A stretch of DNA of 37,823 nt. Origin: Zetaproteobacteria bacterium. GTDB taxonomy: Bacteria; Pseudomonadota; Zetaproteobacteria; Mariprofundales; Mariprofundaceae. The stretch covers positions 1 through 37,823 of the forward strand of contig JAJRWP010000024.1 of the NCBI GenBank assembly GCA_021545645.1, given 5' to 3'. The position numbers and the translations under genes are program-made. How positions within the stretch are numbered: position 1 is the first letter of the stretch; each line of letters starts with the position of its first letter. Positions 2,632-15,367 of the stretch are shown one piece after another. Under the pieces are notes generated by a model. The model was not told the DNA's origin. It searched no databases and saw nothing but the letters and a program-made list of their open reading frames with translations.

Positions 2632-5214
2632 ATGTTGCGACCTTTTTTGTCCTGCGGAACATGATACCGGGGCAACATATCGGCAGCGCCGCCGGATAAG
2701 CACCGCATTACCAATCACCAGCAACGAACTCACCGGCATGGCAATCGCCGCAAACACAGGCGTCACCAACGCCGCCATCGCCAAGGGAACCAGCAACAAA
2801 TTATAAGCCAGCGACAATCCGAGATTTTGACGCACTGTTTTCAATGTCTGCCGCCCGAGCATCAGCGCATACAATACCTTATCGATGTCCGAACTCATCA
2901 ACACGACATCGGCGGATTCCAACGACACATCGGCCCCGGAACCCATGGCGATACTGACATCGGCAACCGCCAGCGCCGGCGCATCGTTCACCCCATCGCC
3001 AACCATCAACACCTTTTTTCCCTGTTCGCGCAACTGCATCACCGCCTGCGCCTTTTCCTCAGGCAAGACCCCGGCCACCACCTGCATATCGCCAAGTTTT
3101 TGCTGCACACAGGCCGCCGCCTGCTCGGAATCACCGGTCAGCAAGCTCACGCCGATACCTTCGCGATGCAAAATTGCGACAACTTCCGCCGCCCCGTCGC
3201 GAAGTTTGTCCTGCAAATGAATAAAACCGGACAATTGCCCATCCACTGCCAGCCAAACGCAAATCCCCATATCCGCCTCAATACGCTGCCGAACACGCAG
3301 CTGGTCGGCAGTGAGCGAAATCCCGTTTTCCACCAATAAACGCGCATTGCCCAAACACAAAGATTTGCCCTGCACATCGCCGCGAACACCCATGCCGGGC
3401 ACGGATTGCAGGGCTGTTGCGGGTAGAAATTCCAACTTGCGCCGTTCCGCCTCATCGGTAATGGCACGCGACAAGGGATGCGGGAAATGCCGCTCTATCG
3501 CCGCCGCCAGTTGCAACACCTCGTCGCTACCCATATCTCCAAACACGGATGCGCATTCGATCACACGCATGCGCCCCTCGGTCAACGTCCCTGTTTTATC
3601 GAACACCACATGATCAATCTCGGACAATCGTTCCAGCGCCTCGCCGTTGCGCACCAACACCCCGGCGCGCGCGCCGACCCCCGAACTGACGGCAATGGCC
3701 ATCGGCGTTGCCAAACCGAGCGCACACGGGCAGGTGATAATCAACACCGCCGCCGCCGCAAGCAAAGCTGTATCGACATCTTGGCGCAACCAGTAAACAA
3801 AAGTTAGTGCGGCAAGACCAAGGGTGGCGGCGACAAACCACGGCACAATCCGGTCAGCCAGCCGTTGCACCCGCGCCTTGCTGCCCTGCGCGGCTTCGAC
3901 CAAATGAATGATGCGCGCCAGCATCGTACCGCCACCCACCTGCCGAACAACGACCACCAACGGCGCATCGAGATTCACCGTCCCCGCCGCCACCGCATCG
4001 CCTGTTTTTTTATGCACTGGCATTGATTCGCCGGTCAGCATCGATTCGTCGAGATGGCTCTCACCTTCCATCACCTCGCCATCGGCAGGCAGTTTATCGC
4101 CTGCGCGAACCAACACCCGGTCACCGGCAACAAGCTTGCGAATCGCCACCCGCTGTTCACCGTCCACTGTTAAAAGAGTGGCCATACGCGGCTGCAATTC
4201 CATCAAGCGCAACGATGCCGAAGAAGCATTCCTGCGCGCCAGCGCCTCCAGATAACGGCCAAGCAGAATTACGAACAAAAACGTCACCACGGTATCGAAA
4301 TACACATGCTCGCCGTGATTTATCGTCTGCCACAGGGAATAGGCGAAGGTTACCGACGCACCGATGGCAATCGGCAAATCCATACTCAGGCGCAAACGCA
4401 TCAAACCACGCCATGCGGAGCTAAGAAACGGCCCGCCGGAATACACCAGCACCGGCGTAGCGATGGCGAAGCTGACCCAATGAAAGAAATTCCGGTATTC
4501 GGCGCTGATGCTGGAAAATGCTCCGGCATACAGGGCGATGGAAATCCACATGATATTCATCGCCCCGAAAGCGGCAAAACCCATGCGGAAAAGCAGGCTG
4601 CGATTCTGCCGTTTCTGCTGCCCTTCGGCGGCTTCCTGATTGTACGGCAGTGCCGCATAACCGAGCGCCGCCAAGCGCTGCACAATCGCAGACAATTGCA
4701 CCTGCCCCGCTTTCCACACCACACGCAGCCGCTGGCGGGCCAGATTCACCTCGGCGAATTCAATGCCGGGCAGGGCTTTGAGTCCTTTTTCAATCAGCCA
4801 GATACAAGCTGCGCAATGAATTCCCTCAACCAGCAGCAGCGCTTCTCTGCGCCCGTTCGCATGCTGGAGAACCATATCCTGCTGCACTTCATGCAAATCG
4901 TATTGATCCATATCCGCAGGCATATCGGGTGGTGGTGTCAGTTCCGCTTCGCGTTGCTGTACGCGGGCATAAAAATCATCCAATCCGGCATCGTGAATCG
5001 CTTGACAAACATTAAGGCATCCGCTGCAACAAAAAGCATATTCCGTATCCGCCACCATGCCCCGGCAAGCCGTTGCACCGTCGGCGGACAGGCCGCAATG
5101 ATGGCAATCTGTCCCGCTTAGACAACCTGTCGTGCTTACGGGCGTGCTATCACTTTTCGACAAAAATTCGCTGGGCGGTATCGTATTGATGTTCGCCGGA
5201 AGAAATCTTGGCAA
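2617..5214 (-). CDS. ccoI: CcoI, copper-transporting P-type ATPase for cbb3 assembly
   Basis: Heavy-metal P1B ATPase of about 865 aa that moves copper across the inner membrane for cbb3 assembly (FixI/CcoI group). In order: N-terminal Cys cluster CHHCGL and FCCSGC typical of CcoI, a metal-binding domain with GIHCAACIW, transmembrane helices, the TGES actuator motif (LTGESMPV), the metal site ITCPCALGLATP, the phosphorylation motif DKTGTLT, the HP motif (HFPHPLS) and the hinge GDGVNDAPAL. All catalytic residues are present. The start is uncertain: TTG at 5214 (shown) overlaps ccoH by 65 bp, and TTG at 5163 would overlap by only 14 bp; both keep the Cys cluster. It follows ccoH in the same operon. 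The last codons lie within the terminator of the convergent cytochrome c gene. Confidence 0.95.
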   Translation of the reverse strand: MPRFLPANINTIPPSEFLSKSDSTPVSTTGCLSGTDCHHCGLSADGATACRGMVADTEYAFCCSGCLNVCQAIHDAGLDDFYARVQQREAELTPPPDMPADMDQYDLHEVQQDMVLQHANGRREALLLVEGIHCAACIWLIEKGLKALPGIEFAEVNLARQRLRVVWKAGQVQLSAIVQRLAALGYAALPYNQEAAEGQQKRQNRSLLFRMGFAAFGAMNIMWISIALYAGAFSSISAEYRNFFHWVSFAIATPVLVYSGGPFLSSAWRGLMRLRLSMDLPIAIGASVTFAYSLWQTINHGEHVYFDTVVTFLFVILLGRYLEALARRNASSASLRLMELQPRMATLLTVDGEQRVAIRKLVAGDRVLVRAGDKLPADGEVMEGESHLDESMLTGESMPVHKKTGDAVAAGTVNLDAPLVVVVRQVGGGTMLARIIHLVEAAQGSKARVQRLADRIVPWFVAATLGLAALTFVYWLRQDVDTALLAAAAVLIITCPCALGLATPMAIAVSSGVGARAGVLVRNGEALERLSEIDHVVFDKTGTLTEGRMRVIECASVFGDMGSDEVLQLAAAIERHFPHPLSRAITDEAERRKLEFLPATALQSVPGMGVRGDVQGKSLCLGNARLLVENGISLTADQLRVRQRIEADMGICVWLAVDGQLSGFIHLQDKLRDGAAEVVAILHREGIGVSLLTGDSEQAAACVQQKLGDMQVVAGVLPEEKAQAVMQLREQGKKVLMVGDGVNDAPALAVADVSIAMGSGADVSLESADVVLMSSDIDKVLYALMLGRQTLKTVRQNLGLSLAYNLLLVPLAMAALVTPVFAAIAMPVSSLLVIGNAVLIRRRCRYVAPVSCSAGQKRSQHKKDA

Positions 5215-10540: not shown

Positions 10541-10783
10541 CTCCTCTATCCAATGAACATATATTTAGGATGAAACTTTCTTCATAATCGGCACGCATTG
10601 CAAGCTTTTTTTTAGGCGCTGCTCATGCGGCACGATTTATTGAATATATAAGAAGGCGTTTTTACGCTTCATATCGGACTGAACAAGAAAAAAGCGCATA
10701 AATAAAATGGCGGGAGGGTGTCACTCACATTATCACCTGAAACCATTGCTACATAAAGAATATATCTGTTTGGTTTTTCAATA
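10541..10783. other. Region upstream of ccoN, no gene seen
   Basis: AT-rich stretch between ccoN and the left repeat of the integrative element. It must hold the ccoN promoter, but I see no convincing -35/-10 pair or FNR box. A weak hairpin is at about 10650-10670. Confidence 0.5.
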
Positions 10784-10805
10784 TACCATCAAATGTACCA
10801 ACAAA
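10784..10805 (+). repeat. Left attachment-site repeat (22 bp)
   Basis: It starts TACCATCAAATGTACCAA and is identical to 15142-15163. The match stops on both sides, as expected for an attachment core. Confidence 0.75.
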
Positions 10806-10903
10806 TCTGACTGATACCCTGCGCATAGCACCCAAACCCATGTGATACGGCATCACTGCCTAGAATTCTCCCGACCCTAGATTGATGCTACACGGAGGCA
10901 GCA

Positions 10904-11086
10904 ATGAGTGGACAACGGCAAGCCTTTTATGGAGGTAAGGAACTCTTTTTATACACTCCGCATAAACTCCACCCTGCCCATATCGGCAGCCCCTTTTTAT
11001 GGTGGCTAGAAAATCTTTTTATAACGCTCCGAAAAATTTCACCATTGCCAGCACATCCGGCCATTCATTTTTTGGCACATCGTTAA
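10904..11086 (+). CDS. Possible small ORF with internal repeat, 60 aa
   Basis: A good ribosome site (GGAGG six nt before ATG 10904) supports translation; the codon content does not prove it. The product has two similar halves, FYGGKELFLYTPHK and FLWWLENLFITLRK, produced by the imperfect DNA duplication in this stretch. It is the only plus-strand candidate in the element and overlaps the 66-aa minus gene by 68 bp. No function recognised; it may be non-coding. Confidence 0.3.
   Translation: MSGQRQAFYGGKELFLYTPHKLHPAHIGSPFLWWLENLFITLRKISPLPAHPAIHFLAHR
10919..11042. repeat. Imperfect tandem duplication, two copies of about 55 bp
   Basis: Copies at about 10919-10973 and 10986-11042 share AGCC-TTTTATGG, the core CTTTTTATA and CTCCG blocks in the same order, about 68 bp apart. 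On the minus strand the right copy includes the last codons of the 66-aa gene (V K F F G A L stop) and the left copy carries a matching V E F M R S V stop. Confidence 0.6.
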
Positions 11087-11219
11087 TCGGGGCCGGATAG
11101 ATGCCGCACCCGAAAAGTATTTGCCGGATCGCCATAATTTCGCCGCTTTCAATCTTAACGATGAAATAGCGACCATCCGCTATCCTGTAGCCTGTAGTCC
11201 GCACATCAGAAGCGCACAT
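11019..11219 (-). CDS. Hypothetical protein, 66 aa, in the integrative element
   Basis: Not recognised. The product reads like a small globular protein (YFIVKIESGEIMAIRQILFG, then PKNEWPDVLAMVKFFGAL). ATG at 11219 has no clear ribosome site. It lies downstream of the iteron-like repeats, in the same direction as the other element genes. The last codons belong to a duplicated DNA block. Confidence 0.5.
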   Translation of the reverse strand: MCASDVRTTGYRIADGRYFIVKIESGEIMAIRQILFGCGIYPAPINDVPKNEWPDVLAMVKFFGAL

Positions 11220-11253
11220 AAAAACCGGAGCCTATGGCATATATATACATAGT

Positions 11254-11382
11254 GTTCAGTTTCTGAACCTGTGAAACATCCGTGAAACACGCTAACGGTT
11301 CAGTTTCTGAACCTGTGGAGCATGCCGAAAAGGCTTTCAAGTTCAGTTTCTGCACCTGTGGTGTTCAGTTTCTGAACTTGTG
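11254..11382. repeat. Iteron-like array: four 20-bp repeats
   Basis: Copies at 11254-11273, 11298-11317, 11341-11360 and 11363-11382 carry GTTCAG-TTT-CTGAAC followed by CTGTG or TTGTG. The core is a perfect inverted repeat; copy 3 has one change in the core. Offsets are 44, 43 and 22 bp, all near multiples of two helical turns, so a protein would meet them on one face. Such arrays are typical of plasmid or phage replication origins (iterons) or co-operative operators. The rightmost two copies lie at and inside the 3' end of the winged-helix gene. Confidence 0.85.
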
Positions 11383-11735
11383 TTCTGTTTTTTCCAGTTT
11401 ATCCATTCGCCAGAAAATGCGTATAGGTTGGGTCGCTTGTACAGCCCACCACGTTGGGTGCGCTCTATGAAGCCCTTTTCTTCCAGTTCTCGGATCGCCT
11501 TGGCAATCGTAGCCCTTGCCATGCCGCCGTTCATGTCAGTGTAAGGGCAGAAAATAGGTTCACTGAGACTGCCCGCCATGCCTTTTGTCGGGTTCTTATG
11601 TCGAATAATGGAAAGGAAGACCCGCACTGCCGAATGCGAAAGACTGTTGAATGCCTCCGAATCAAACAAGGGGTTTTCCACCATGATAAACAGCGGGCCT
11701 TTCCTGCCGCGTTTCATGTTTCGCTGATTCGTCAT
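11343..11735 (-). CDS. Winged-helix DNA-binding protein, possible replication initiator or regulator
   Basis: 130 aa with a basic N-terminus (MKRGRKG), a helical part (SLSHSAVRVFLSIIRHK) and a winged-helix motif (RATIAKAIRELEEKGFIERTQRGG) followed by a wing strand. Similar layouts occur in small plasmid/phage replication proteins and in transcription regulators; sequence alone does not decide. ATG at 11735 overlaps the stop of the Cys-rich gene (ATGA). The C-terminal tail after KKQNTSSETEHH is encoded by the iteron-like repeats and may be a by-product of them. Its own product is a natural candidate to bind the array. Confidence 0.65.
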   Translation of the reverse strand: MTNQRNMKRGRKGPLFIMVENPLFDSEAFNSLSHSAVRVFLSIIRHKNPTKGMAGSLSEPIFCPYTDMNGGMARATIAKAIRELEEKGFIERTQRGGLYKRPNLYAFSGEWINWKKQNTSSETEHHRCRN

Positions 11736-12115
11736 TTTAGCCCTAGCTTCTCAGCGCCGGAAAGACGTTGCACCAGCGAATCCATACCTTTGCATGCCTG
11801 AGTATCCAAAACATACTTGTGCGACGAAAAAACGTCCCCTATTGCCATATCAGCGGTACGCTTGCCCGTCCTGAAAGGCCAGAGTGAACAGGTGCTTGTT
11901 TGGCAGGTGGATGGATTCGCGCCGATACACTCGCGGCAGTAGCGATTGATCACCTTTGTTTTGTCGATGCCCTTCGGTGTTTTGCCCATTCGCATAGGCC
12001 ATAGGCTGCATTCAGCCTGAAAGCTGCAATTTTTGATTGTACCGATTTCGCCAGCGGTACAATCGATGCAAAAAAGGCGGATTGATTCGCTTCTGTTCAG
12101 GCATTCCTTGCTCAT
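11732..12115 (-). CDS. Cys-rich protein with two zinc-finger-like repeats
   Basis: 127 aa with two similar halves: FCIDCTAGEIGTIKNCSFQ...CSLWPMRMGK and YCRECIGANPSTCQTSTCSLWPFRTGK. Each has CxxC, two further cysteines and CSLWP-x-R-x-GK, which suggests two small zinc-binding modules. Proteins with such C-L-(W/Y)-P-(Y/F)-R-x-G endings are frequent in phages and prophages but have no clear function. ATG at 12115 follows GAGG and overlaps the upstream stop (ATGA); its own stop overlaps the winged-helix start. Function unknown; nucleic-acid binding is a reasonable guess. Confidence 0.65.
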   Translation of the reverse strand: MSKECLNRSESIRLFCIDCTAGEIGTIKNCSFQAECSLWPMRMGKTPKGIDKTKVINRYCRECIGANPSTCQTSTCSLWPFRTGKRTADMAIGDVFSSHKYVLDTQACKGMDSLVQRLSGAEKLGLK

Positions 12116-12462
12116 GTTTCCACCTCGCATAGCTGGCGGGCAGCCGAGCAAAACGCATTTTCTGGATTACCCCGCACAGCGCGTAAGCAACCTTTTACAA
12201 TTTCGTCGCCAGCCAGCCCGAAGCTGTCCAAAGCATGCCTGATACCCTCAATGCCCCAGCCATCGACTGCGGCTTTCACTAAAAATAATCCGTAGGGTGA
12301 AAGCTGCTCTTGAATTTTGATTGGCAGCCACAATGCAAGGCTTGGTTTTATCAGAATTGCACCCAGCAATTTGGCGGCGGCCTTATCTGTGCTATGATTC
12401 GCTTGCTTGATGTGGAAAGGCGGCTTCTTGGCGGGGGCCGCTTTTTTTGTGGTGGTGTCCAT
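12112..12462 (-). CDS. Hypothetical protein, 116 aa
   Basis: Not recognised. It has a low-complexity basic start (TTTKKAAPAKKPPFHIK) and then a helical domain (AAKLLGAILIKPSLALWLPIKIQEQLSPYG...IRHALDSFGL). ATG at 12462 lies 1 nt after the alpA stop, and the gene end overlaps the Cys-rich gene by 4 bp. It belongs to the leftward, translationally coupled block of the element. Confidence 0.6.
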   Translation of the reverse strand: MDTTTKKAAPAKKPPFHIKQANHSTDKAAAKLLGAILIKPSLALWLPIKIQEQLSPYGLFLVKAAVDGWGIEGIRHALDSFGLAGDEIVKGCLRAVRGNPENAFCSAARQLCEVET

Positions 12463-12463
12463 A

Positions 12464-12712
12464 TCAGGCTGCCTGATTCGTATCTTGACGGTCGCGCCAG
12501 TCCTTACCTGCGGCCAGCAGATCGCAAAGTTCATCAATAGCACTTGTTTCCCATGCCGTAGTGCGCTCGCTGAGTTTTATGCCAGCCGGAAATCGGCCTG
12601 CTTGAATGCCTGCCCACCATGCCGAGCGGCTAACCGGAACACGTTGCAATACGCGCGGCAGTCGCTCAAATCCTTTTGCCTGTGTTGATATTCCTTTGCT
12701 TTGTGATGCCAT
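12464..12712 (-). CDS. AlpA-like phage regulator / excisionase, 82 aa
   Basis: Small MerR-type helix-turn-helix protein. It contains ERLPRVLQRVPVSRSAWWAGIQAGRFPAGIKLSERTTAW, the AlpA signature (first strand, VP.SRS.WW turn, G.FP..IKL..R...W). AlpA proteins regulate integrase/excision genes in P4-like elements. ATG at 12712 has AGGAGG seven nt upstream. It starts the coupled block running left and faces a leader region cut by the MITE insertion. Confidence 0.88.
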   Translation of the reverse strand: MASQSKGISTQAKGFERLPRVLQRVPVSRSAWWAGIQAGRFPAGIKLSERTTAWETSAIDELCDLLAAGKDWRDRQDTNQAA

Positions 12713-12810
12713 TTTACTGCCTCCTGTCGTCTCTGTTAGACGTTATGAAGGCTCAGCTTAGACCCGTAATAATGCGAAAAAGAATTGAAAAAAAACCTTT
12801 CGCCTATGTG

Positions 12811-13137
12811 CAAGCCGTTCGACAAAGGTGTTGCTATAAAGAAAAGGTAAAATGGGTCTGTCATTGTATGTTGTGCATTTGATGTATTTGAAAAGTAATC
12901 ATGCAAGTCAAAATAGACATAGCCGCCTATTGGGGGCTATGTCTATTTGTACCTTTCTGAACTATTTAGCCCTGTCCTGAATCCCTGTTTGCAGAAATTA
13001 ATCTGAACACCGTCAACTTTCACTGGAATCCGTGAAGAAGATTTCTTGCCCAAATGAAAAATGCCTCCAACCGTTGTGATTAAAGGCATTATATCATCTG
13101 CAAAGGCTAATTAGCAACATCTTTGTCGAACGGCTTG
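12811..13137. mobile_element. MITE: 327 bp, 25-bp inverted ends, 9-bp target duplication
   Basis: The left end starts CAAGCCGTTCGACAAAGG (12811-12835) and the right end (13113-13137) is its inverted copy with one mismatch in 25. The insertion is flanked directly by GCCTATGTG at 12802-12810 and 13138-13146, a 9-bp target duplication. There is no credible ORF inside, so a transposase would have to act in trans. An internal 14-bp perfect hairpin (12911-12948) may fold in RNA. The transposon family is not assigned; 9-bp duplications occur in several IS families. Confidence 0.9.
12911..12948. terminator. Perfect 14-bp hairpin inside the MITE, possible bidirectional terminator
   Basis: Arms AAATAGACATAGCC (12911-12924) and its reverse complement (12935-12948) enclose a 10-nt loop. 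The A-rich foot on one side and T-rich foot on the other could stop transcription in both directions, although the T tracts are short. Confidence 0.45.
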
Positions 13138-13139
13138 GC

Positions 13140-13874
13140 CTATGTGTGCCCTTGTTTGAGAATTCCACGCACCTGCTGCCTCGTAGTTTTAAGATCGCCA
13201 AACTCAGAAAGAAGATTGGCTGTAAGGGAATATCTATCGGGCATATCTTCGTGGAAAAGCCCAGCCAGCGTTTTTACAGCCCAACCCCGCTTAGCAGAAA
13301 GTCCGCTATTTTTTCCTCTCTTCGCAAACAGATCGCTTGAAAGATTCCAATTAGCCGCCACTTCAACCATTTTTCTCCCTGCTATATGCTCAAGCTCGCT
13401 TGCAAAGTCCCAATCTTTTTCGCGATCCTCCGAATATAGATAATCATTTGATATAAGGTCATCGTAACCGTAACGCTGTTTTGCCTCCCTATAAAACACC
13501 TCCGCAGCGTCTTGCCGCGCCTTGTTGTTCAAATCCACGTCTTTTTTCCATTGAACAGGATCATCAATAGAACGGCACACAAGAAGAACATCGAGAATTT
13601 CGGTACAGTGATTAAACACCATCTTAACTGGCCCGCCAAATCCATTTAATACATCTTGCAGCGCCTTATCTTCAAGCCAATCAAGCGGCCACAAGCACTC
13701 ACCATCTATTTCAAGAATACGACCGTTGAAGCGTTGAAGGGCAGAAGCCACGCCCTCGGCCAAGATGCCCTTACAAAACGCTTTATATGCTGTCTCAGAG
13801 GTTTTGAAGATACCAAAGATTTTATGTCTTGCATCAATGTGAAGTAACTTCCGAAGGTTCGTCTGCTCGTCCAC
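13140..13874 (-). CDS. Hypothetical protein coupled to the integrase, 244 aa
   Basis: Not recognised; it looks soluble and mostly alpha-helical. It starts at GTG 13874, just 3 nt after the integrase stop, with the G-rich integrase end (AGGGGGTG) as ribosome site, so both are translated from one transcript. It ends KTTRQQVRGILKQGHT. Its TAG stop falls in the 9-bp sequence duplicated by the MITE, so the insertion left the reading frame intact. Being next to int suggests a role in the element's maintenance or in host interaction, but nothing in the sequence shows which. Confidence 0.75.
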   Translation of the reverse strand: MDEQTNLRKLLHIDARHKIFGIFKTSETAYKAFCKGILAEGVASALQRFNGRILEIDGECLWPLDWLEDKALQDVLNGFGGPVKMVFNHCTEILDVLLVCRSIDDPVQWKKDVDLNNKARQDAAEVFYREAKQRYGYDDLISNDYLYSEDREKDWDFASELEHIAGRKMVEVAANWNLSSDLFAKRGKNSGLSAKRGWAVKTLAGLFHEDMPDRYSLTANLLSEFGDLKTTRQQVRGILKQGHT

Positions 13875-13877
13875 GAT

Positions 13878-15098
13878 TCACCCCCTTTCACGATGTATCG
13901 GTATCACATCCGCGCCTGTTCGCAGTCCATCCAAATAATCAGCCCAGTGTTGCATCATTTTTTTACGTTCGGCCAAATGCTGAGCATGGTTATAGGCCGC
14001 TTTTATCTTGTTGCGCTCGGCATGGGCAAGCTGGCGCTCGATCACATCACTGGCCCAGCCCTGTTCATGCAACATGGTGGAAGCCATTGCCCTGAAACCA
14101 TGACCGACAATCTCCGACTTTTCAAAACCCATACGACGCAAAGTCGCATTCACCGTGTTTTCACTCATTGCCCGATCCCTGCTCCGCACACTCGGGAAGA
14201 CAAAACGCCCCCGCCCCGTCAACGCATGCAGATCGCGCAGGATAACCACCGCCTGCGATGATAGTGGCACAATATGCTGAACCTTCATCTTCATCTTCTC
14301 CGCTGGTATGCGCCACTCTGCGGCATCAAGATCAAATTCTACCCATTCCGCATTCCGTAATTCACCGGGACGCACAAACATCAGCGGGGCAAGCTGTAAG
14401 GCGCAGCGAGTGACATACGCACCGGAGTAACTGGCAATCGCACGAAGCAACCCGCCAACCTCTTTCGGATCAGTAATTGTTGCCATGCTTTTATGCTTTA
14501 CGGGCGCAAGTGCTCCTTTCAGATCAACGGTAGGGTCACGGTCTGTGCGTCCCGTTGCGATTGAATAGCGGAACACCTGACCGCAAACCGCCCGCGTCCG
14601 GTGCGCTGTCTCTACAGCACCACGGCTTTCAATGCGGCGGAGCATCGCCAATACGTCCGGCGCTTCCAGTTCAACAATCGGGCGTTTCCCAATCCACGGG
14701 AAAACATCCCGCTCCAGATCACGAATCACCCGCTTTGCATGCCTATCGCTTAATCTTCGAGACTGCTTACCGTGCCATTCCCTAGCAATCGCCTCGAAGC
14801 TGTCAGCCTTGGCATTCTTTTCAGATTGCTTTACCACGGCGGGATCAATTCCATCAGCCACTTGTGTGCGATAATCATTACACCGACGCCTTGCCTCTTT
14901 TAGGCTCACCTCAGGATATGTCCCCAAGGCCAGCGTACATTGTCGGTTCCCCATGCGGTAATTCATTCGCCAATACTTGCCCCCGTTTGGGTGAATAAGC
15001 AGATGGAGACCGCGACCGTCAGACAACTTCACCTGCTTGTCAGCAGGTTTCGCAGCACGCACAAGAGGATCATTCAATTTATCGCTTAACCTAGCCAT
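13878..15098 (-). CDS. int: P4-type tyrosine integrase
   Basis: Site-specific recombinase of 406 aa that inserts and excises the element. The N-terminal DUF4102-type arm-binding domain has VKLSDGRGLHLLIHPNGGKYWRMNYR and LALGTYPEVSLKEAR. A SAM-like core-binding domain follows, then the catalytic domain with the first Arg in FVRPGELRNAEW, HGFRAMAST (H-x-x-R), HAERNK and the tyrosine in AAYNHAQHL. All catalytic residues are present, so it is probably active. ATG at 15098 (AGGGGC just upstream) is preferred to 15140, which would translate through the attachment-site repeats. It reads away from tRNA-Ser and is followed directly by the 244-aa gene. Confidence 0.96.
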   Translation of the reverse strand: MARLSDKLNDPLVRAAKPADKQVKLSDGRGLHLLIHPNGGKYWRMNYRMGNRQCTLALGTYPEVSLKEARRRCNDYRTQVADGIDPAVVKQSEKNAKADSFEAIAREWHGKQSRRLSDRHAKRVIRDLERDVFPWIGKRPIVELEAPDVLAMLRRIESRGAVETAHRTRAVCGQVFRYSIATGRTDRDPTVDLKGALAPVKHKSMATITDPKEVGGLLRAIASYSGAYVTRCALQLAPLMFVRPGELRNAEWVEFDLDAAEWRIPAEKMKMKVQHIVPLSSQAVVILRDLHALTGRGRFVFPSVRSRDRAMSENTVNATLRRMGFEKSEIVGHGFRAMASTMLHEQGWASDVIERQLAHAERNKIKAAYNHAQHLAERKKMMQHWADYLDGLRTGADVIPIHRERG

Positions 15099-15110
15099 TT
15101 TCAGCCCCTT

Positions 15111-15176
15111 TTGATGGTACATGCTCTGGAGGGCGGCCATGTACCATCAAATGTACCAACAAAAATGATGGTACAT
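15111..15176. repeat. Cluster of integrase core-type sites
   Basis: TTGATGGTACAT occurs at 15111-15122, inverted at 15139-15150, and again (less its first T) at 15166-15176. These lie just upstream of int and around the right attachment repeat, as expected of recombinase-binding sites. Confidence 0.65.
15142..15163 (+). repeat. Right attachment-site repeat (22 bp)
   Basis: Identical to 10784-10805; it sits 44 bp upstream of the int start codon and about 110 bp from the 3' end of tRNA-Ser. Confidence 0.75.
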
Positions 15177-15274
15177 TGCTGAATTGTATAGGACAAGGCT
15201 GGACAACAAGACAAGAAAAAAGACAGCAACCACAACGATTACTGGCCTTTATTGGACTTCCTAGAATACTGATA

Positions 15275-15367
15275 TGGCGGAGAGGGTGGGATTCGAACCC
15301 ACGTGACAGGTTTCCCCGTCCAACCGATTTCGAGTCGGTGCCGTTATAACCACTTCGGTACCTCTCC
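15275..15367 (-). tRNA. tRNA-Ser (anticodon CGA), CCA encoded
   Basis: The minus strand folds as a class II tRNA: acceptor GGAGAGG/CCTCTCC, discriminator G, encoded CCA, anticodon stem ACCGA/TCGGT with loop CTCGAAA (anticodon CGA, reads UCG), a long variable arm containing GACGGGGAAACCTGTC, and T loop GGTTCGAATCC. It lies 97 bp downstream of accA in the same direction. It marks the right flank of the integrative element. Confidence 0.98.

Follow-up and report, generated by a model that had tools for sequence, protein, structure and literature searches.

Islands that carry an integrase (IntY) and AlpA at transfer RNA (tRNA) or transfer-messenger RNA (tmRNA) genes have been described in Pseudomonas (I23, I44, and I55); in the tmRNA islands, excision requires the integrase, which also has a part in transfer by phage (PMC12595487). 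In the PICMI satellites of Vibrionaceae, expression of AlpA alone suffices for activation, and phage-mediated transfer has been described for comparable islands in both settings (PMC12595487, PMC10803314). Here, we analyzed a 37,823-bp stretch of DNA (GenBank assembly GCA_021545645.1, contig JAJRWP010000024.1; hereafter, the window) from the Mariprofundaceae genome of an iron-oxidizing marine bacterium. Sequence comparison identifies in it a real mobile element of ~4,567 bp whose target is the 3' end of a tRNA-Ser gene, and it is probable that this minimal, integrative element was inserted there by its own tyrosine integrase. By the same comparisons, the element stands among the known tRNA islands with integrase and AlpA as a new variant of very small size, and it adds such an island to a poorly studied class.

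Like the I23/I44/I55-type islands, the element has a tyrosine integrase gene directly downstream of the RNA gene, an AlpA-family gene (PF05930, 28.3 bits against a cut-off of 21), a direct repeat of the RNA gene's 3' end at its far end, here an imperfect copy at the spacing found in relatives, and no transfer genes. It differs from them in its size (~4.6 kb), in the lack of a detected defense system (a common but not obligatory cargo) and of a YqaJ/RadC/Gp2-like gene, and in carrying a winged-helix/iteron block instead. Very small size, absence of capsid genes, and gene order (int, a gene of unidentified function between int and alpA, a small gene, and a putative replication gene) are shared with PICMI satellites; however, no element protein matched a DUF3987/DUF5906 primase, the locus is at tRNA-Ser and does not adjoin fis, and no helper is known. 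P4-like satellites carry a primase-helicase and capsid-redirecting genes. Neither was matched in the window element, which falls outside both the PICMI and the P4-like satellites.

Among its closest counterparts are two Mariprofundaceae islands of 4.5 kb at tRNA-Lys (G053:C9, L139) and 5.05 kb at tRNA-Asn (G070:C237, L142), which share the integrase family, tRNA end, arm sites, small size, and order of int followed by alpA. Both carry, later in the plan, a gene for a YagK_YfjJ/REP_ORF2-G2P protein, a rolling-circle initiator type, whereas the window element has the winged-helix/iteron block, a Cys-rich gene, and a 244-amino-acid (aa) orphan. A fragment from Mariprofundus sp. EBB-1 (G063:C7, L117/L120), located at tRNA-Leu, likewise has int, an unidentified gene, an alpA-like gene, and a winged-helix gene, but its int-adjoining gene is unrelated, an HTH_39 gene is present, clear iterons are lacking, and the contig stops before the distal end.

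Ends of the element

The integrase was searched for in 74 genomes of the family. It lay directly beyond the 3' end of an RNA gene in 21 of 21 loci examined, including the window, and the target genes differed (tRNA-Ser, -Leu, -Met, -Asn, -Lys, -Ala, and -Arg, and tmRNA). In these loci, a shared sequence connects the RNA gene to the repeats upstream of int; it contains the runs CTTTTTTCTTG and GTCCTATACTGTCC as well as a terminator stem. The corresponding ~100-bp segment of the window, from the tRNA to the arm sites, was similar to that of all 20 other elements (z-scores of 6 to 30), and the flanks of six element-free tRNA-Ser genes showed no likeness to it (z-scores of -0.2 to 4). Since this segment is common to integrase loci and absent from element-free tRNA-Ser genes, it belongs to the element, which places the right end at 15275. 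An integrase 81% identical to that of the window occupies the same tRNA-Ser (CGA) gene in a genome of the same genus (L038/L008, G001:C52) with other cargo; DNA after that integrase is unrelated, and the contig stops inside the island.

At the other side, eight related elements have a readable far end, and each carries a copy of the 3' end of its own target RNA gene beyond a tandem pair of integrase arm-type sites. The distance from arm pair to RNA copy was 40-58 bp in the seven related elements measured. The window has the same layout, with the arm pair at 10782-10805 separated by 61 bp from a tRNA-Ser copy at 10708-10720. The score of this copy was reached by none of 5000 shuffles of the left flank, but by 3 of 744 window segments; taken alone it is moderate evidence, and position and orientation make the predicted left end convincing. 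An exact-repeat search missed the far tRNA copy in most relatives because of a deletion of 1-3 bases in the copy, and gapped alignment found it. Indeed, seven of nine distal copies lack 1-3 bases (window, L128, L132, L133, L136, L138, and L142), and base 70, seventh from the tRNA 3' end, falls within the gap in each of the seven or can be placed there by alignment. The distal copy is intact in L141, and that of L139 diverges from the tRNA at this same point. The fixed position of the gap argues against random decay. Either the circular form has a core one base different from that of the tRNA, or the base would be lost at crossover, locking the islands in place. A practical rule follows for far ends that exact-repeat searches miss, namely an arm pair, ~40-60 bp, and a tRNA copy without base 70.

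The perfect 22-bp repeat that the sequence-only reading had reported at 10784-10805 and 15142-15163 is present in exactly two copies in the window, which are the sole matches there at up to 3 mismatches, and none arose in 100 shuffles. By its place in the layout shared with relatives, we interpret this repeat as a pair of arm-type sites where Int would bind, and not as the ends of the element. Four arm-type sites lie upstream of int, one of them directly before its likely start codon at 15098.

Arm motifs vary from island to island (TGTACCAWCA/TGGTAC, ACGGTA, GCAGTAAC, and GGGGGT), with the attL arm otherwise conserved (intergenic regions, L085-L113). Such variation would be expected if the variable N-terminal domain of the integrase recognizes these sites, and the varied motifs could serve as a natural data set on the specificity of the arm-binding domain. 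Two other observations concern island ends. The 12-bp ACAAGAAAAAAG occurs at 10683-10694, just outside the left end, and at 15211-15222, in the right arm of the element, and the pair may have been left by an island that formerly occupied this tRNA. In G053:C9, the distal tRNA-Lys copy runs straight into an apparent second conserved island arm (L139, ~4847-4900), suggesting tandem islands at one tRNA.

Gene content and a candidate replication module

The gene order is int, the orphan 244-aa gene, a transposon remnant, alpA, a small gene, the Cys-rich gene, and the winged-helix gene with its iterons (Table 1). All named genes are on the minus strand, and all reading frames are intact. Most of the gene content proposed by the sequence-only reading was borne out. 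Family matches place the integrase among P4/PRK09692-type tyrosine integrases, with arm-binding, central, and catalytic domains; the AlpA-like regulator and the winged-helix gene matched PF05930 and HTH_36, respectively; the double-zinc-module gene corresponds to the Cys-rich gene with its two CxxC...C blocks; and the iteron-like array consists of four palindromes. That reading is also supported in seeing a minimal integrative element devoid of genes for structure or transfer: neither a capsid gene nor a terminase or transfer gene was recognized, and no partition or relaxase gene was found. PADLOC recognized no defense system in the element and returned weak matches to DNA-binding domains only.

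The gene set from alpA to the winged-helix gene had been described as unfamiliar, and the block is in fact rare. One clear relative of the winged-helix protein (46-48% identical) was found, in Mariprofundus sp. EBB-1 (G063), and weak ones in 2 of 399 genomes of the phylum (G190 and G383), where they adjoin alpA-like genes in otherwise different elements. PHROG matches of the winged-helix protein are to phage O-like replication families, the best being replication initiators and helicase loaders (phrog_678, E-value of 1.2e-6, residues 69-124), and its Pfam match covers the DNA-binding domain alone. A viral match to this protein (L121) was set aside, as it covers the recognition helix only of a longer phage replication-like protein. 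Three of the four GTTCAGNNNCTGAAC copies in the adjoining array are exact. In origins of the Lambda O/ori type, a winged-helix DNA-binding protein acts with four palindromic iterons that overlap its own gene. The window block may resemble such an origin in its winged-helix protein and its four palindromic iterons, two of which overlap the gene, but it has neither a C-terminal loader-binding domain nor a loader gene, and its iterons lie at the 3' end of the gene and beyond. The window element has no YagK_YfjJ/REP_ORF2-G2P gene; the corresponding late position is taken by the winged-helix gene that overlaps the iterons. Since a Rep gene stands late in the same plan in the small relatives, the winged-helix/iteron block is probably a replication module, and such islands would then keep a constant int-alpA front end while exchanging the replication module that follows it.

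The Cys-rich protein links the element to phages. It is 72% identical over 119 residues to a protein of a viral (phage) contig (L037, 1855-2220), the genes being 77% identical in DNA over 317 bp, and the phage gene sits between a RecE-like exonuclease gene and a gene for single-stranded DNA-binding protein. No relative was found in the other 77 genomes of the class. These matches suggest that the gene was exchanged with a phage sharing hosts with the element, which fits a phage-dependent element but is no proof of one, and the common gene offers an initial candidate among phage groups for a helper in Mariprofundaceae.

For the 244-aa protein, no relatives were found in 78 genomes of the class, in plasmids, viral contigs, Pfam, PHROGs, or PADLOC, and its single-sequence structural model was unusable (predicted local distance difference test of 35). 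The ~116-aa protein has a possible distant relative in the Mariprofundus sp. EBB-1 fragment (L117:8039-8269); a viral match to it (L122) was rejected as a chance match of 19 residues, the gene not being present there.

Proposed cycle and alternative readings

From these comparisons, we infer excision, replication, and transfer of the element as follows. Int bound to the arm sites would repress its own promoter. Such self-repression has been measured for the tRNA-linked integrases of the KplE1 intS type (PMC2951348), in which the integrase promoter overlaps arm-type sites as in the window; autoregulation was measured there and is proposed here by analogy. Once induced, AlpA would shift Int toward excision, with the exchange falling across the final bases of the tRNA, and the winged-helix protein would bind the four palindromic iterons and, together with replication proteins of the host, initiate copying of the excised circle. 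For its spread the element would need another agent, a phage being the likeliest, as do other small int and alpA islands without transfer genes. With its one-base deletion in the left copy and its transposon insertion, this particular copy may no longer be able to excise. A more far-reaching version, which we regard as rather unlikely, is that the element is a Mariprofundaceae phage satellite with one of the smallest gene sets known, in which a short winged-helix protein and four iterons replace the primase or rolling-circle Rep, and whose integrase family tolerates a one-base difference in the core.

Several observations weigh against an island at the tRNA-Ser end with its own replication module. 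The left tRNA copy matches 13 of 14 bases, and with a gap. A search of relatives for an empty site, by way of ccoN and tRNA-Ser, gave none, the two never being adjacent in the other genomes examined. The winged-helix relative in G063 has no clear iterons, two weak 20-mers there not being accepted as homologous; the window protein stops after its DNA-binding domain, without a domain for binding a helicase loader; and fold searches with a weak model of it gave no significant match.

The sequence-only reading had taken the 22-bp repeat as the attachment core of a ~4.4-kb element located wholly between ccoN and tRNA-Ser and outside the tRNA. Although the repeat is perfect and bounds the genes, the ~100 bp outside its right copy belong to the element in all related islands, these islands have similar tandem arm pairs inside their tRNA-copy ends, and the arm motif occurs in four copies near int. 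The ends were thus misplaced, the attachment site being, as in related elements, the tRNA-Ser 3' end at 15275 with its copy at 10708-10720, and we judge a 22-bp core very improbable. Capture of a cryptic plasmid by the integrase is suggested by the iterons beside the winged-helix gene, which resemble a plasmid origin. It is nevertheless very unlikely, as the winged-helix, 116-aa, and 244-aa proteins had no match in 72,556 plasmid records, partition and relaxase genes are lacking, and the gene order is that of tRNA islands; neither a recognized plasmid Rep nor plasmid relatives, as expected of an integrated iteron plasmid, were found.

Two further alternatives carry more weight, although we favor neither. 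The winged-helix protein could be a regulator or recombination directionality factor and the palindromes its operators, with no autonomous replication. Winged-helix proteins are reported to be able to serve as excision factors (PMC11963761), and the confinement of the Pfam match to the DNA-binding domain and the lack of a significant fold match to a replication protein point the same way. On the other side stand the best PHROG matches, to replication initiators and helicase loaders, the late Rep gene in the small relatives, and the fact that AlpA already supplies an excision factor; a purely regulatory role is conceivable but the less plausible of the two functions. The element might also be a locked relic whose mobility ended with the loss of the left-core base and the transposon insertion, leaving the remaining genes as passengers. 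The one-base difference between the core copies and the remnant at 12811-13137 favor such a history, to which we give something like one chance in three; however, the transposon lies between genes and the reading frames are all intact, and since the same base is missing from most relatives' distal copies, its deletion may be normal for the family.

Mapped features and the transposon remnant

Table 1. Features of the tRNA-Ser island, in order along the window.
Feature	Coordinates	Strand	Remarks
Left end (attR), copy of tRNA-Ser 3' end	10708..10720	-	CACCCTC-CCGCCA versus CACCCTCTCCGCCA, one base missing
Distal tandem arm-type pair	10782..10805	+	TATACCATCAAA TGTACCAACAAA; includes left 22-bp repeat; same layout at distal ends of relatives
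66-aa open reading frame (ORF)	11019..11219	-	No family match
Iteron-like array	11254..11388	.	Four palindromes GTTCAGNNNCTGAAC; two overlap 3' end of winged-helix gene
Winged-helix protein, 130 aa	11343..11735	-	HTH_36; proposed iteron-binding replication protein
Cys-rich protein, 127 aa	11732..12115	-	Two CxxC...C modules
Small protein, ~116 aa	12112..12462	-	ORF open from 12543
AlpA-family excisionase/regulator, 82 aa	12464..12712	-	PF05930
Internally deleted transposon, 327 bp	12811..13137	.	Between alpA and 244-aa gene; 26-bp inverted ends, 9-bp target duplication GCCTATGTG
Orphan gene, 244 aa	13140..13874	-	Directly downstream of int
Tyrosine integrase (int)	13878..15098	-	ORF open from 15140; start at 15098 from alignment with G001
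Four arm-type sites upstream of int	15109..15178	.	TGTACCAWCA and inverse; includes right 22-bp repeat
Conserved element-borne attL arm	15179..15274	-	Terminator stem 15224-15244
tRNA-Ser (CGA), target gene	15275..15367	-	3' end is right end of element

The 327-bp remnant had gone unmentioned in the earlier reading. Its ends plus 150 bp match, at 80%, a 4.07-kb transposon in G043 (L156, G043:C1:35800-40500), and we interpret the insert as a deleted, non-autonomous derivative, that is, as later damage outside the core plan of the element. The transposon in G043 is flanked by GTTCATCCC repeats and encodes a 595-aa putative transposase without a Pfam family, a D12 methyltransferase, and a NotI-like endonuclease, and would thus be a carrier of restriction-modification cargo.

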